Shown here: piece by piece, positions 1,204 through 9,113 of the stretch
How positions within the stretch are numbered: position 1 is the stretch's first letter
Layout of the letters: every line of letters starts with the position of its first letter
Origin: Pseudomonadota bacterium
GTDB lineage: Bacteria; Pseudomonadota; Gammaproteobacteria; Burkholderiales; REEB80
Reading direction: 5' to 3'
Length of the DNA: 64,000 nt
Assembly: GCA_018971485.1 (NCBI GenBank)
Contig: JAGXAQ010000002.1
Coordinates: forward strand, 235,706-299,705
Translations under genes and position numbers: made by a program
Notes under the pieces: model-generated
The model's database searches: none
What the model was told of the DNA's origin: nothing
What the model saw: only the letters and a program-made list of their open reading frames with translations

Positions 1204-1794
1204 ATGAACGCTTCCATCTCAACATTACATGAAATTATCAGCAATCGGATTAGTAAAAGAGCTTTAAACCCCAGCTCAACCATCAACACTGAAACCCTGG
1301 TTCTTCTTGCTGAAGCAGCACGTTGGGCTCCATCCTGTAATAATGAACAGCCCTGGAGATTCATTTTCTGGAACAAGAGTCAAAACCTTAAAGCATGGGA
1401 GAATGCTTTCAGCTGCTTAGCAGACGGGAACAAAACCTGGGTCCAGAACGCCCCTGTCCTAGCTGTATCACTAGCCTATGAACTAAATAACAAGGGCTTG
1501 CCAAACAGATGGGCTCAATATGATACAGGTTCAGCCGCACAAAACCTGTGCCTACAGGCCACTGCCTTAGGCCTTATTGCCCATCAGATGGGCGGGTTTG
1601 ACTCCCAGCAACTCCGCAAAAACTTTCATTTACCTCACGAAATCACCCCTATGGCCATGATTGCTATTGGCTATCCAGGAGATGCACAACAGCTCCCTGA
1701 AAAATTGCGCCAACGTGAGACAGCACCTAGGGAACGACGCGCTTCCGGCGAGCTTTTCTTTAACTCAGAATGGGGCCAACCCTTAAAACGCTAA
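1204..1794 (+). CDS. Nitroreductase family protein
   Basis: A 196-residue FMN-dependent nitroreductase-fold protein, expected to reduce nitro compounds, quinones or similar acceptors with NAD(P)H as a cytosolic homodimer. The N-terminal NRISKRALN segment (14-22) matches the FMN-phosphate binding R-S-R-type motif. RWAPSCNNEQPWRF (40-53) is the conserved nitroreductase core, a Gly/Ala-rich helix follows at 106-124, and IGYPG (155-159) is the usual C-terminal motif. Substrate cannot be told from sequence. It is the last gene before the decayed insertion-element region. Confidence 0.88.
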   Translation: MNASISTLHEIISNRISKRALNPSSTINTETLVLLAEAARWAPSCNNEQPWRFIFWNKSQNLKAWENAFSCLADGNKTWVQNAPVLAVSLAYELNNKGLPNRWAQYDTGSAAQNLCLQATALGLIAHQMGGFDSQQLRKNFHLPHEITPMAMIAIGYPGDAQQLPEKLRQRETAPRERRASGELFFNSEWGQPLKR

Positions 1795-1963
1795 TCAAAC
1801 CAATCAAACAACATATTTGCCATCAAGATGTTTCGTCTCAACAACTGCTTCATAGAGCCATTTTACAGTTCGATTTCTACAGACACTAGCACGCCCCGTG
1901 TCCTTATGGGGCACAGCCTTGAAATCACTAATGAGGTCCACGCCTCATCACACGGACGGCCGG

Positions 1964-2105
1964 ATAGAACTGCTGAAAATGCTCAATTACATGACCCCAA
2001 GCGATGTGGTGATGGCAACATGAACTGACCTTCGGCCTGTTCGCGAACGCCAAGCAGAACACCGGCACTGACTTGCTGCTCCGCTCACTGGCCAAGCCAT
2101 GCTGA
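1964..2105 (+). pseudogene. IS4-family transposase fragment, frameshifted
   Basis: Two adjacent reading-frame pieces resemble the DDE core of IS4-family transposases. The first (1964-2023) reads IELLKMLNYMTPSDVVMAT and then hits a TGA. The second (2025-2105), one base out of register, reads LTFGLFANAKQNTGTDLLLR and ends in TGA. The pattern of helix, P-x-D-V-V-[LM]-A, aromatic segment, then G-x-D-L-L-x-R is the layout around the second catalytic Asp of this family; the Asp itself is missing at the junction. Neither the N-terminal domain nor the YREK region can be followed, so this is a remnant. The assignment is by recalled pattern, without a database search. Confidence 0.5.
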
Positions 2106-2374
2106 TACCGGCACCAGAACTGGCTGACGGATGTTGACTGTTCCAGGCAGTCTAGCCAGTAAGGAGCGTAACAACTTCCAAGCTCAAAGTTTGAGTTGCT
2201 CTATGCCAACCTGGAACAGGGCTATTTTTCAATAGCATATTACGTGGGGTTTTCACCAGCGCTCAAGACACACAGCCATAAAAAGAAATGATTAGCCTTG
2301 ATATCATGTCTAAAACTAGAACGGCCATTGAAACTATTGAAATATTCTTGGGCCGCGGTAACAGAATGCCTCAC

Positions 2375-2393
2375 AGATGTGTATAAGAAACAA
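2375..2393. repeat. Tn5/IS50-like inverted-repeat end
   Basis: The bases AGATGTGTATAAGA followed by AACAA match the 19-bp Tn5 mosaic end at 17 of 19 positions, with mismatches only at positions 15 and 19. Read this way the inner side of the repeat faces left, so the element would lie upstream, where the IS4-type transposase fragment is; the IS50 group belongs to the IS4 family. No partner repeat is visible near 1800-1960, so only one end would remain. A transposase-based library adapter artefact is an alternative, though two mismatches argue against it. Confidence 0.35.
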
Positions 2394-2773
2394 GATGGGG
2401 GCACTGGACATCTGGCGTCAAGATTTTCTGTAAGCTTGAGAAGAGATCGGTGAAAAGCCCAGATTCACGGCTTTACGGAAAATACTGTCAAAATGGCATA
2501 AAATATAAGAAAATCACCTAAAAAGGGGATTCCCACACATGCTGATCAACATCATGCGTATATCAACCGGCAATAAGCGGCAGGCAATCCATCTGCAGCA
2601 TAACGCCCTGCTCAGTGGCTGTGTCGATAAGCAGCCTCTGTTCAAGGATCATCGAGCCAGCAATAACCAAAACAATCGATATCGGAAAGCTGGCAGCGGT
2701 GATCGTCACACTCGACATAGGTGCTACGAAAAGGACGGTCTGTCGCAATTTCAGGATTCAGTAGAACGCCATC

Positions 2774-3952
2774 ATGATCCATAATGTCACAATCGCGCTT
2801 CTTAACGCCCTACTGCTTGCCATGTCAATGGGATGGGATATCCTTTGGGCACTGATACTCGGCTTCATACTATCGAGCCTGATTCAAGCAGTTGTCACCA
2901 AGGGCGAGATGAGCCATCTGTTACCAGATGCCGGATTACGCTCTATAGCAACCGCAAGCAGTCTCGGTGCAGCTTCCTCATCATGCTCTTACGCAGCAGT
3001 GGCACTTGCGCGGTCGATCTTTCGCAAAGGCGGCGACTTTACGGCGGCGATGGCCTTCCAGTTCGCCTCAACTAATCTTGTTCTTGAACTCGGTATCATC
3101 CTTGCCGTTCTGATCGGCTGGCAGTTCACTTTGGCTGAATTCATCGGCGGTCCGATTATGATCGCGCTGATGGTGCTTATGCTCCGTCGGGCGATGACGC
3201 AAAACCGGCTCAAGATAGCACACGACGAGGCAGCGCGAGGGCGACAGGGACGAATGGAAGGCCATGCGGCAATGGACATGTCGGTGAAAAACAATGGCTC
3301 CATTCTCACACGCGCACTATCGCCGAAGGGATTTACGGCGATCAGTCACTTCTTCATCATGAACTGGGCAAGCGTGTGGATCGACATTGTGCTGGGCCTG
3401 CTGATCTCCGGCGCACTCGGTGCCTGGGTGCCGCATTCCTTCTGGCAATCACTGTTCCTCGCACATCACCGTCTTGGATCCGCCCTGGTCGGGCCACTCA
3501 TCGGACCACTGGTGGCGATCGTCTCATTCGTCTGTTCAGTCGGCAATGTGCCACTCGCCGCCGTGCTCTGGAACGGCGGCATCAGCTTTGGCGGCGTGGT
3601 TGCCTTTATCTTCGCGGATCTAATCATTCTGCCGATCCTCGACATCTACCGCAAATACTATGGCTGGCGGATCGCTGCATTGTTATTTGTCGTGTTTTAC
3701 GCAGCGATGGCTGCGGCCGGATACATAATCGAACTATTGTTCGGAATGACCGGGCTGATTCCCACCCAACGTCATGCCACGGTCGCAATAGAGACAATCA
3801 GCTGGAACTACACCACAATGTTAAATATTGTTTTCATAGCTGCCGCTTTAGTCCTGATCTGGAAATTTATGCGCTCAGGAGGACCAGACATGCTGCGCAT
3901 GATGACTACACCACCCAGCAAAAATCACGGTCAAGATCACCATCATCACTAA
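2774..3952 (+). CDS. ArsP/YraQ-type permease with histidine tail
   Basis: A 392-residue polytopic inner-membrane protein of the predicted permease family that includes ArsP (organoarsenical efflux) and YraQ (PF03773-like). Both repeats of the family are visible: SSSCSYAA at 68-75 with the conserved Cys71, and CSVGNVP at 254-260 with Cys254, each followed by a G-rich helix; about eight to ten hydrophobic segments are present. A hydrophilic loop at about 145-175 carries His and Met, and the protein ends in four His after Gln-Asp, suggesting metal contact. Codons are visibly GC-richer than neighbours (37 G/C of 60 at 3481-3540 against 21 of 60 at 4381-4440), and decayed IS sequence lies upstream, so recent acquisition is likely. 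Substrate is not determined. Confidence 0.85.
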   Translation: MIHNVTIALLNALLLAMSMGWDILWALILGFILSSLIQAVVTKGEMSHLLPDAGLRSIATASSLGAASSSCSYAAVALARSIFRKGGDFTAAMAFQFASTNLVLELGIILAVLIGWQFTLAEFIGGPIMIALMVLMLRRAMTQNRLKIAHDEAARGRQGRMEGHAAMDMSVKNNGSILTRALSPKGFTAISHFFIMNWASVWIDIVLGLLISGALGAWVPHSFWQSLFLAHHRLGSALVGPLIGPLVAIVSFVCSVGNVPLAAVLWNGGISFGGVVAFIFADLIILPILDIYRKYYGWRIAALLFVVFYAAMAAAGYIIELLFGMTGLIPTQRHATVAIETISWNYTTMLNIVFIAAALVLIWKFMRSGGPDMLRMMTTPPSKNHGQDHHHH

Positions 3953-4295
3953 CAAATGCGGGATCAGGAAATATCATTTTTCTACCGGCGGGACTTGACA
4001 AGATGTTTACTGATTTCAACGAAACCTGTCTTTCACCCCCATGCCCTGTCAGGACTGCACCCAAAGCTTCCAGGGCTCAGTCTGCGTCTCGCGAACGACC
4101 TACCGGGTTTTGGTTCCCCCGATGACACTCACGCGTGACTTGTCGAAAAAAAGATCAGCCTTCACCGCAAGTTCACCCAAAAACAACTGTTCGATTCCTC
4201 GCAGGATACACCATGCTTGCCATGCCTCGAACGGCTATCTGGCAGACTAGGCAGTAAACAAAAACAGCCAAGGCCAGGAGTCATCTGGATGATAG
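3953..4295. other. Intergenic stretch with no convincing gene
   Basis: About 340 bp between the convergent permease and hda genes. Several short overlapping plus-strand frames exist (longest about 69 codons), but they lack a ribosome site, recognisable motifs or sensible composition. The GC content stays raised to about 4130 and then falls, so the right edge of the acquired segment probably lies here. No terminator hairpin stands out. Confidence 0.4.
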
Positions 4296-4961
4296 TCAGG
4301 ATACCGCTAAAATTTCACGCAGCAAAGCAAGGGTTATAGGTCGTTTTGTTTCCAATGAGGACATGAGGAGCGTATCCAGTAATTGAATCAATGAAGGCAT
4401 ATCACGCTGCGTATGATTAAGAAGATACTCAATGATCTCTGAGCTCACCTTTAAATCCCGAGAACGTGCATAAGCTGACAAAGCCTCCTTCTTATCCCAA
4501 TCTGTCAGACTATGCACATGAAAAACAAGCCCATACCCAAGACGGGTCGAAACATCAGGTCGTATCTTTAGCAATGAAGGGGCATTATCACCTGACAAAA
4601 GCAAATGACACTTGCCTTCTTTTACCTGATTAAGCAAGACAAACAAAGCGACCTGGCCTTCTGCATCTAATAAATGAGTATCATCAAGCGCCAGAAGATC
4701 ATGGCTTTCCAACCAACTCAGGTCAGGAATGTGGCCTGATTCAAAATAACCCGCTTTCTCACCTGACTCAATGAAGGCATTCACCGCCGCTTTAAGGAGG
4801 TGGCTCTTCCCACACCCTTTTTCACCCCAGATATAGACCCACTTTTCTCCCGTTTTGTGCCAATTGGCCAAATAAGCTAAAAGTTCTTGATTTACACCAG
4901 GAATGAAATCCGAAAAACTCGGCCCAGACAGGAAAGGAATATCAAGTAAAAGTTGACGCAT
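4296..4961 (-). CDS. hda: DnaA regulatory inactivator Hda
   Basis: A 221-residue AAA+ protein homologous to the DnaA ATPase domain. With the sliding clamp it stimulates ATP hydrolysis on DnaA and so prevents re-initiation. The N-terminal QLLLDIPF (3-10) is the clamp-binding peptide that separates Hda from DnaA. Walker A is GEKGCGKS (46-53), Walker B LLALDD (89-94), and the arginine-containing DVSTRLGYG segment (136-144) is the box VII region. There is no DNA-binding domain IV, and the length is normal for Hda. It is divergent from purM, an arrangement common in betaproteobacteria. Confidence 0.93.
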   Translation of the reverse strand: MRQLLLDIPFLSGPSFSDFIPGVNQELLAYLANWHKTGEKWVYIWGEKGCGKSHLLKAAVNAFIESGEKAGYFESGHIPDLSWLESHDLLALDDTHLLDAEGQVALFVLLNQVKEGKCHLLLSGDNAPSLLKIRPDVSTRLGYGLVFHVHSLTDWDKKEALSAYARSRDLKVSSEIIEYLLNHTQRDMPSLIQLLDTLLMSSLETKRPITLALLREILAVS

Positions 4962-7679: not shown

Positions 7680-8951
7680 ATGTCTGTCCAATTATCCCCA
7701 TTTCGACTCGAAGCAACAGAGCTTGCGCTGTCCAACATACTCTCACTTCATGAACCAGTAGATTTATCTTTACATAAGTTATTTCGCTCCTTGCCCAAAC
7801 TTGGGGTACAAGACCGGTTTTTCGTCGCTGAAAACTGCTATACAATCCTAAGGTTTCTACGGCGACTCGAATGGATCTGCCAGGACAACATAACACCAAG
7901 ACGCATTTTTCTAGCAAATCTTTTATATTATCAAGGGTTTAGCATAAGAGAGATTTCCTCTCACATTCACTCCAAAGAAACAAAATGGCTAGAATACTCG
8001 CGCAACTTAACGCTTCCTGCCACCAATCCTGCCTTAACACTCAATCTGCCAGACTGGCTTTACATCAAACTATCTCAGATATTCGAACCGGAAGAACTTA
8101 CCCAACTCGCTTATAGTCTCAATTCACCAGCATCTCTTGACCTCAGAGTAAACAGTTTACTAGGACGCCGTCCTGAAATCTTATCAAGACTACAAAATAA
8201 AAATATCGCCTCTGCCCTCACTCCATATGCCCCTCTCGGTCTTCGTCTAGATAACAAGATGGATTTGGTGCATCTGGATCTTTTCAAGGAAGGGATTATT
8301 GAGGTACAGGATGAGGGGTCCCAGCTAATCTGTCAGCTCATGGAAGCTAAACGGCATGAACGTATTGCAGACTTTTGTGCGGGGGCGGGAGGAAAAAGCC
8401 TCGCTTTATCAGCCGACATGAAATCCAGCGGGCAAATTTATGCATTTGATATTTCAGAAAAAAGACTGGCGAAAATGAGGCCTCGCCTAAGACGATCTAC
8501 TTCAACCAATATTCAACCCATCCGGATTGAATCCGAGCATGATCCAAAGCTTGAGCGCTATCAAGCTCGCATGGATCGTGTTCTTGTGGATGCTCCTTGC
8601 TCTGGTCTAGGCACATTACGCAGAAATCCGGAACTTAAATGGCGCCAATCTCCCGATACAATTGCAAGACTCGTTCAGCAACAGTCATCTATACTCCATG
8701 CCGCAGCGCAAATGGTAAAGCCAGGAGGTAGGCTTGTCTATGCAACCTGCAGCTTATTAAAAGAGGAAAACCATCATCAGGTTGAAGCTTTCCTTGCCAA
8801 AAATTCAGAATTCAAATTAATCTCGGCCCAGAAAATCCTTCAGCGACAGCATATTGATCTTAATACGGGACCTATGCTCGAACTTTGGCCCCATCAACAT
8901 CATACGGATGGTTTTTTTGGGGCAGTAATGGAAAGAATCCGTCACGCCTGA
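7680..8951 (+). CDS. RsmB/NOP-type RNA m5C methyltransferase
   Basis: A 423-residue SAM-dependent RNA cytosine-C5 methyltransferase, probably acting on rRNA. The SAM-binding motif DFCAGAGGK is at 231-239. The two family cysteines are present: DAPCSGLG (Cys307) and YATCSLL (Cys357), the release and nucleophile cysteines of NSUN/RsmB enzymes. The N-terminal 150 residues resemble the helical NusB-like extension of RsmB-type proteins. Whether the target is 16S C967 (RsmB) or another site cannot be decided here. It starts 2 bp after the DUF3108 stop and closes the purM operon. Confidence 0.85.
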   Translation: MSVQLSPFRLEATELALSNILSLHEPVDLSLHKLFRSLPKLGVQDRFFVAENCYTILRFLRRLEWICQDNITPRRIFLANLLYYQGFSIREISSHIHSKETKWLEYSRNLTLPATNPALTLNLPDWLYIKLSQIFEPEELTQLAYSLNSPASLDLRVNSLLGRRPEILSRLQNKNIASALTPYAPLGLRLDNKMDLVHLDLFKEGIIEVQDEGSQLICQLMEAKRHERIADFCAGAGGKSLALSADMKSSGQIYAFDISEKRLAKMRPRLRRSTSTNIQPIRIESEHDPKLERYQARMDRVLVDAPCSGLGTLRRNPELKWRQSPDTIARLVQQQSSILHAAAQMVKPGGRLVYATCSLLKEENHHQVEAFLAKNSEFKLISAQKILQRQHIDLNTGPMLELWPHQHHTDGFFGAVMERIRHA

Positions 8952-9113
8952 ATGAAAACAAACCAGTCCCATGAAATTCAGATGAAAACCTACAGGTGAT
9001 TTCCAGCACTTGTTTGTCTAAAATTATGGCTACACAGATGCCCTGTTTCTCATTCTTCTAACTAATTAGTCGTTTTTAAAGGTAATTCCAGAAGAAAGCT
9101 TCTGTATAACGAC

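Follow-up and report, generated by a model that had tools for sequence, protein, structure and literature searches.

The interval from about 1800 to 4290 of the window (the whole stretch of 64,000 nucleotides that was analysed) is probably the remnant of a decayed plasmid fragment in which one cargo gene, a permease of family PF03773, has been kept under selection as a likely elevator-type exporter of soft metals, copper being the first candidate. On this reading the chromosome would have taken up part of a plasmid like those of Acidiphilium and other Acetobacteraceae. The genes on it for replication, recombinase, transposon resolvase and toxin would have decayed, and the permease gene would have stayed intact under purifying selection. 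We infer that the pieces arrived together, and we infer likewise the direction of transport, the metal and the energy source.

The locus and its counterpart in the sister species

The window lies in a contig of 316,852 bases from a genome of 1.93 Mb. A gap of about 2.5 kb separates a nitroreductase gene (1204-1794) from hda (4296-4961, minus strand), and the only intact recognisable gene in it is the permease gene at 2774-3952 on the plus strand. None was found in 1795-2773 or in 3953-4295, and no regulator or arsenate reductase accompanies the permease in 1795-4295. The initial annotation had described a permease standing alone between housekeeping genes, with no arsR, arsenate reductase or other regulator, and was right on its position, its isolation and the absence of such partners. 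An Rfam scan of 1750-4350 gave no match, and a promoter scan returned five sites where 2.6 were expected, none of them convincing ahead of the permease start.

The sister species, the one other genome of the genus that was compared, has the same gene order of class-II amidotransferase, nitroreductase, hda, purM and purN, with the gene names partly read from sequence. Between nitroreductase and hda it carries a transglutaminase-like gene (8509-9093 of the sister locus) and no permease. Since no trace of this transglutaminase-like gene was found in the window gap, replacement and insertion fit the arrangement equally well.

Identity and foreign origin of the permease

The permease has 392 amino acids, including a histidine-rich tail. 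Its residues 10-320 match Pfam PF03773 (ArsP_1) with an E value of 9.2e-67 and 225.7 bits, well above the gathering cut-off of 32.3; the frame of 392 codons is thus the intact ArsP/YraQ-type permease that had been proposed. Also as proposed, it is richer in GC (53.5%) than the sequence upstream (47%) or downstream (51%). Of the 51 ORFs in the window that reach 150 amino acids, it scores lowest in codon use and is highest in GC3, at 0.612 where the mean is 0.421 (standard deviation 0.032), which makes 2774-3952 the most deviant in codon use, with the window ORFs rather than ribosomal genes as the reference. The GC3 values of two Acidiphilium orthologs are 0.81 and 0.87, and the base composition of the window permease may have drifted toward that of its host.

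The closest kinship is with Acidiphilium. The permease shares 80% amino acid identity with its ortholog from Acidiphilium sp. PA, and a phylogenetic tree of 75 rows placed it in a cluster with Acidiphilium sp. PA and A. iwatense with support of 100/100, next to sp. PA at 96/77. The relatives were the best 80 of 271 matches; five with a stop and one identical sequence were left out of the tree, which therefore contained 74 loci and the window. In a search of the order at an E value of 1e-20 the permease was found in one of 399 genomes, the window's own. At an E value of 0.001, nine of 100 relatives gave a match, including the window's own genome, and the remaining eight were at 22-34% identity.

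The permease is thus absent from the sister species and from the 398 other sampled genomes of the order. This distribution, the Acidiphilium kinship and the deviant codon use support the earlier view that the permease was acquired. We regard this as ordinary horizontal transfer, unusually legible here. The distribution could also have been caused by inheritance from the ancestor of the order with loss everywhere else, or the block could be an artefact of assembly, and the comparison of the genus through one other genome only leaves some room for this. We give such explanations almost no credence, given a single occurrence in 399 genomes, a position well inside a long contig with host genes on both sides, and a deviant composition combined with alphaproteobacterial kinship.

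A second, distant relative of the permease occurs elsewhere in the genome (C15:19968-20315), with 23% identity over 116 residues in an open frame of 358 amino acids.

Relics of plasmid genes beside the permease

The first relic, at 1828-1944 on the minus strand, is a piece of 39 residues from a plasmid replication initiator protein A (RepA), identified by tblastn and by DNA match. It has 51% identity over 39 amino acids, and its DNA is 70% identical over 1827-1936. In a tblastn search of 72,556 plasmids it reached an E value of 1e-5, with Acidiphilium multivorum JZ-6 unnamed2 and Acidithiobacillus ferrooxidans YQ-N3 unnamed3, and 12 of 15 among the matches listed were RepA. This piece is the plasmid replication gene expected of an integrated plasmid relic.

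It is followed on the plus strand by the relic of a plasmid serine recombinase gene (1961-2190), interrupted by frameshifts and a stop. Within it, 2028-2133 has 76% DNA identity (E 1.3e-13) to an intact serine recombinase gene of A. iwatense, which has a ParA-like reading frame downstream. The frame-tolerant scores of 1961-2190 against two plasmid recombinases were 60 and 61, compared with a maximum of 47 in 200 simulated sequences, and the score against a third was 56, compared with a simulated maximum of 53; scores against a fourth plasmid recombinase and against a ParA control were not above chance. A 92-residue upstream piece had no match in a tblastn search of plasmids, and the same DNA later matched the A. 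iwatense serine recombinase.

Directly ahead of the permease is the relic of a Tn3-family transposon resolvase (2474-2758, plus strand). It matches the DNA of pACRY03 in two collinear stretches, at 72% over 2474-2650 and 75% over 2675-2758, and between them 24 bases take the place of 326 in the gene; the homology stops 15 bases before the permease start. All seven plasmid records matched are from Acidiphilium, and the pACRY03 resolvase adjoins a Tn3 transposase. The patch thus holds the resolvase expected of a Tn3-family transposon remnant; comparison with the ORFs of related plasmids found no piece of a Tn3 transposase in it.

Downstream of the permease, 4109-4222 on the minus strand is probably a fragment of a BrnT-family toxin gene, judging by a short DNA and peptide match. 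The segment 4153-4222 has 76-77% DNA identity to brnT of four Acetobacteraceae plasmids (E 2e-4 at best), and the peptide has 48% identity over 29 amino acids; searched alone, the peptide gave no match. The downstream sequence had been described as gene-free, which holds for intact genes in 3953-4295 but overlooks this probable fragment.

Because these relics all resemble plasmid genes of Acidiphilium or Acetobacteraceae, we read the patch as what is left of a dead plasmid, with a surviving cargo gene. Relatives of both the RepA and the Tn3 resolvase relics occur on one plasmid, JZ-6 unnamed2; no single plasmid with all the relic pieces and the permease was found. The acid-mine plasmids of Acidiphilium and Acidithiobacillus (pACRY03, pACRY05, JZ-6 unnamed2 and YQ-N3 unnamed3) have intact relatives of the RepA relic, the Tn3 resolvase relic or both, but differ from the patch in having no window permease among the matches listed.

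Plasmids NZ_CP041718.1 of Acidiphilium multivorum and CP084175.1 of Acidithiobacillus ferrooxidans share the same order around repA, traA, vapC and pemK, and the second of them also carries merA, an RND permease and further genes linked to metals. The common order of the repA region suggests that plasmids pass between classes in acid-mine water.

The initial annotation had instead seen a mobile-element edge upstream, made of a frameshifted IS4-type transposase and a Tn5-like end. The edge is real, but it consists of the RepA, serine recombinase and Tn3 resolvase relics, and the IS4-type transposase had no match. No Pfam or NCBIfam model matched the read-through frames of 1795-2775, or the downstream frames tried, above its cut-off (Pfam: six upstream frames, some of them trimmed, and four of six downstream, with X at stops; NCBIfam: six upstream frames), and the sole Pfam row was an isochorismatase, below cut-off at E 0.09. 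Ten short pieces searched against Pfam gave no transposase. A search with PF02281 also gave no match, although it was silent in its controls as well. We therefore rejected an IS4-family insertion sequence, for lack of an IS4-type transposase in the Pfam and NCBIfam frames tried.

The Tn5-like end was found, as an orphan. The 19-mer at 2375-2393 (plus strand) agrees with the Tn5 mosaic end at 17 of 19 positions, a match seen in none of 100 window shuffles, and it is the sole match within three mismatches in the genome. A Tn5/IS50-type element, with two inverted ends around a transposase, was rejected on finding one end genome-wide and no transposase attached to it. The mosaic end is what a composite element of the IS4/Tn5 type would explain. 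We consider such an element very improbable, however, since no transposase appeared in the frames tried, the genome has no second end, and the upstream pieces belong to plasmid and Tn3-type genes.

Selection on the permease and decay beside it

Differences were counted by codon position in place of dN/dS because third positions were saturated. Between the permease and its Acidiphilium sp. PA ortholog there are 72, 32 and 202 differences at positions 1, 2 and 3, whereas the resolvase relic, set against its relative in two parts, shows 11, 8 and 11 in one and 6, 6 and 9 in the other. Constraint has thus acted on the permease and not on the resolvase relic, a pattern that argues for selection on the pump and drift beside it. 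The RepA relic, with 11, 14 and 23 differences, is too short to judge. When the same number of changes as in the permease was placed randomly on the relative's gene, 6.8 stops arose on average, and none of 500 runs was free of stops. Some of the constraint seen in the permease is older than the transfer. The proposal that the pump has been kept by selection is therefore supported by a codon-position pattern in which the permease alone shows constraint. The patch illustrates clearly how a plasmid cargo gene outlived its plasmid, the relics decaying without codon bias and the pump being kept.

Function of the permease

Conserved residues of the permease clade were read from an alignment of 44 rows, the window and 43 of the 80 relatives; L068 was left out for a stop in frame, L069 as a caution, and others for redundancy. 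M19, C71, M161, H164, M167, M169, M196, C254 and M377 are invariant, and histidine-rich tails recur among the rows. A conserved ligand set of methionine and histidine is of the copper type.

In Acidiphilium sp. PA the ortholog is flanked on one side by an HMA-domain P-type ATPase, encoded on the other strand, together with a small GMTCxxC-motif protein; the opposite flank carries a multicopper oxidase. Within 2 kb of the permease, nine of the 80 loci have a multicopper oxidase and 17 have a gene for a multicopper oxidase, a P-type ATPase or an RND protein, leaving 63 without such a seed match; three have an ArsR-type gene as close. These counts cover the 80 loci alone, with seeds that were taken from them and that each match their own locus. 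Most seed matches are at most 2 kb from the permease rather than further away.

For a Pfam survey of the neighbours, 145 ORFs were called at 79 loci by a GC3 rule that may give wrong frames, and 139 were scanned, six being left out (five with coordinates off the locus and one downstream, L083). The 67 upstream ORFs include four RND transporters, three multicopper oxidases, two P-type ATPases and one CopB. Six of the 72 downstream ORFs are cation efflux proteins (cation diffusion facilitators), which speak for metals besides copper. The 25 families listed for each side include none linked to arsenic.

The structure model of the permease has a mean pLDDT of 82.9. Foldseek found no match for it in the PDB at E 0.001, and sequence searches of the PDB with the single protein and with the 44-row profile gave none. 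Among the chains compared, the closest predicted fold is ArsB of Leptospirillum ferriphilum (Z 14.2, 4.3 Å over 296 residues), followed by divalent-anion symporters of the Na/dicarboxylate type (Z 12-13), middling Z scores of this kind being common in helical proteins. ArsB and the divalent-anion symporters are elevator-type transporters.

From the invariant Met, His and Cys residues, the metal-gene neighbours at 17 of the 80 loci and the ArsB-like predicted fold, the permease is most likely an exporter of soft metals, with copper as the first candidate. It would be a secondary transporter of the elevator type, exporting a soft metal ion from the cytoplasm, and its methionines, histidines and cysteines may serve as metal ligands. 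The odds that copper itself is the substrate are about even; we favour copper or a comparable soft metal over arsenic, and the arsenic-style name is probably misleading.

The permease could instead be a true ArsP that exports trivalent organoarsenicals such as methylarsenite. It shares PF03773 with the ArsP of Campylobacter jejuni, which exports methylarsenite and trivalent roxarsone (PMC6205960); its nearest fold among the chains compared is ArsB, and a few relatives do have an ArsR-type gene nearby. We think this unlikely. Unlike ArsP, the window permease has no ars genes alongside, an ars operon being usual for ArsP and not obligatory, and its clade has an invariant Met/His/Cys set of its own, read from the clade alignment alone. 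Arsenic families are missing from those listed beside its relatives, both genomes of the genus lack ArsB, and the conserved Met/His set is of the copper type.

Among known proteins, Rv2963 of M. tuberculosis is probably kin of the permease clade, whose tree contains mycobacterial relatives. Rv2963 is a putative permease that belongs to the copper regulon of RicR (PMC10961391). The SO_0444 Cu/Zn efflux transporter model (NF033936) matches residues 27-350 weakly, at 51 bits against a cut-off of 300, so the permease is not a member. SO_0444, which is distantly related, is needed when zinc or copper causes stress (PMC3219624), and cadmium and copper induce its family in Nitratiruptor (PMC10092412).

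The clade is spread over Actinomycetota, Acidobacteriota, Cyanobacteriota, Chloroflexota, Pseudomonadota and plasmids. Somewhat short of an even chance, and so tentatively, we suggest that it may be a distinct and barely recognised class of copper exporters that goes by an arsenic name, with an elevator fold like that of ArsB and the invariant ligand stretch M-E-x-H-A-x-M-D-M. The warning is that a clade which has been transferred widely, and whose residues and neighbours are of the copper type, may be hidden behind ArsP-like labels.

The genome of the window has a multicopper oxidase (C34:43407-43727, PF07732, E 1.9e-13) that is absent from the sister genome; at 1e-4 this oxidase did not match that of Acidiphilium sp. 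PA. A Nocardiopsis metagenome contig carries the permease twice, in opposite orientations and with the same match length and identity for both copies, which may be a palindrome produced by assembly.
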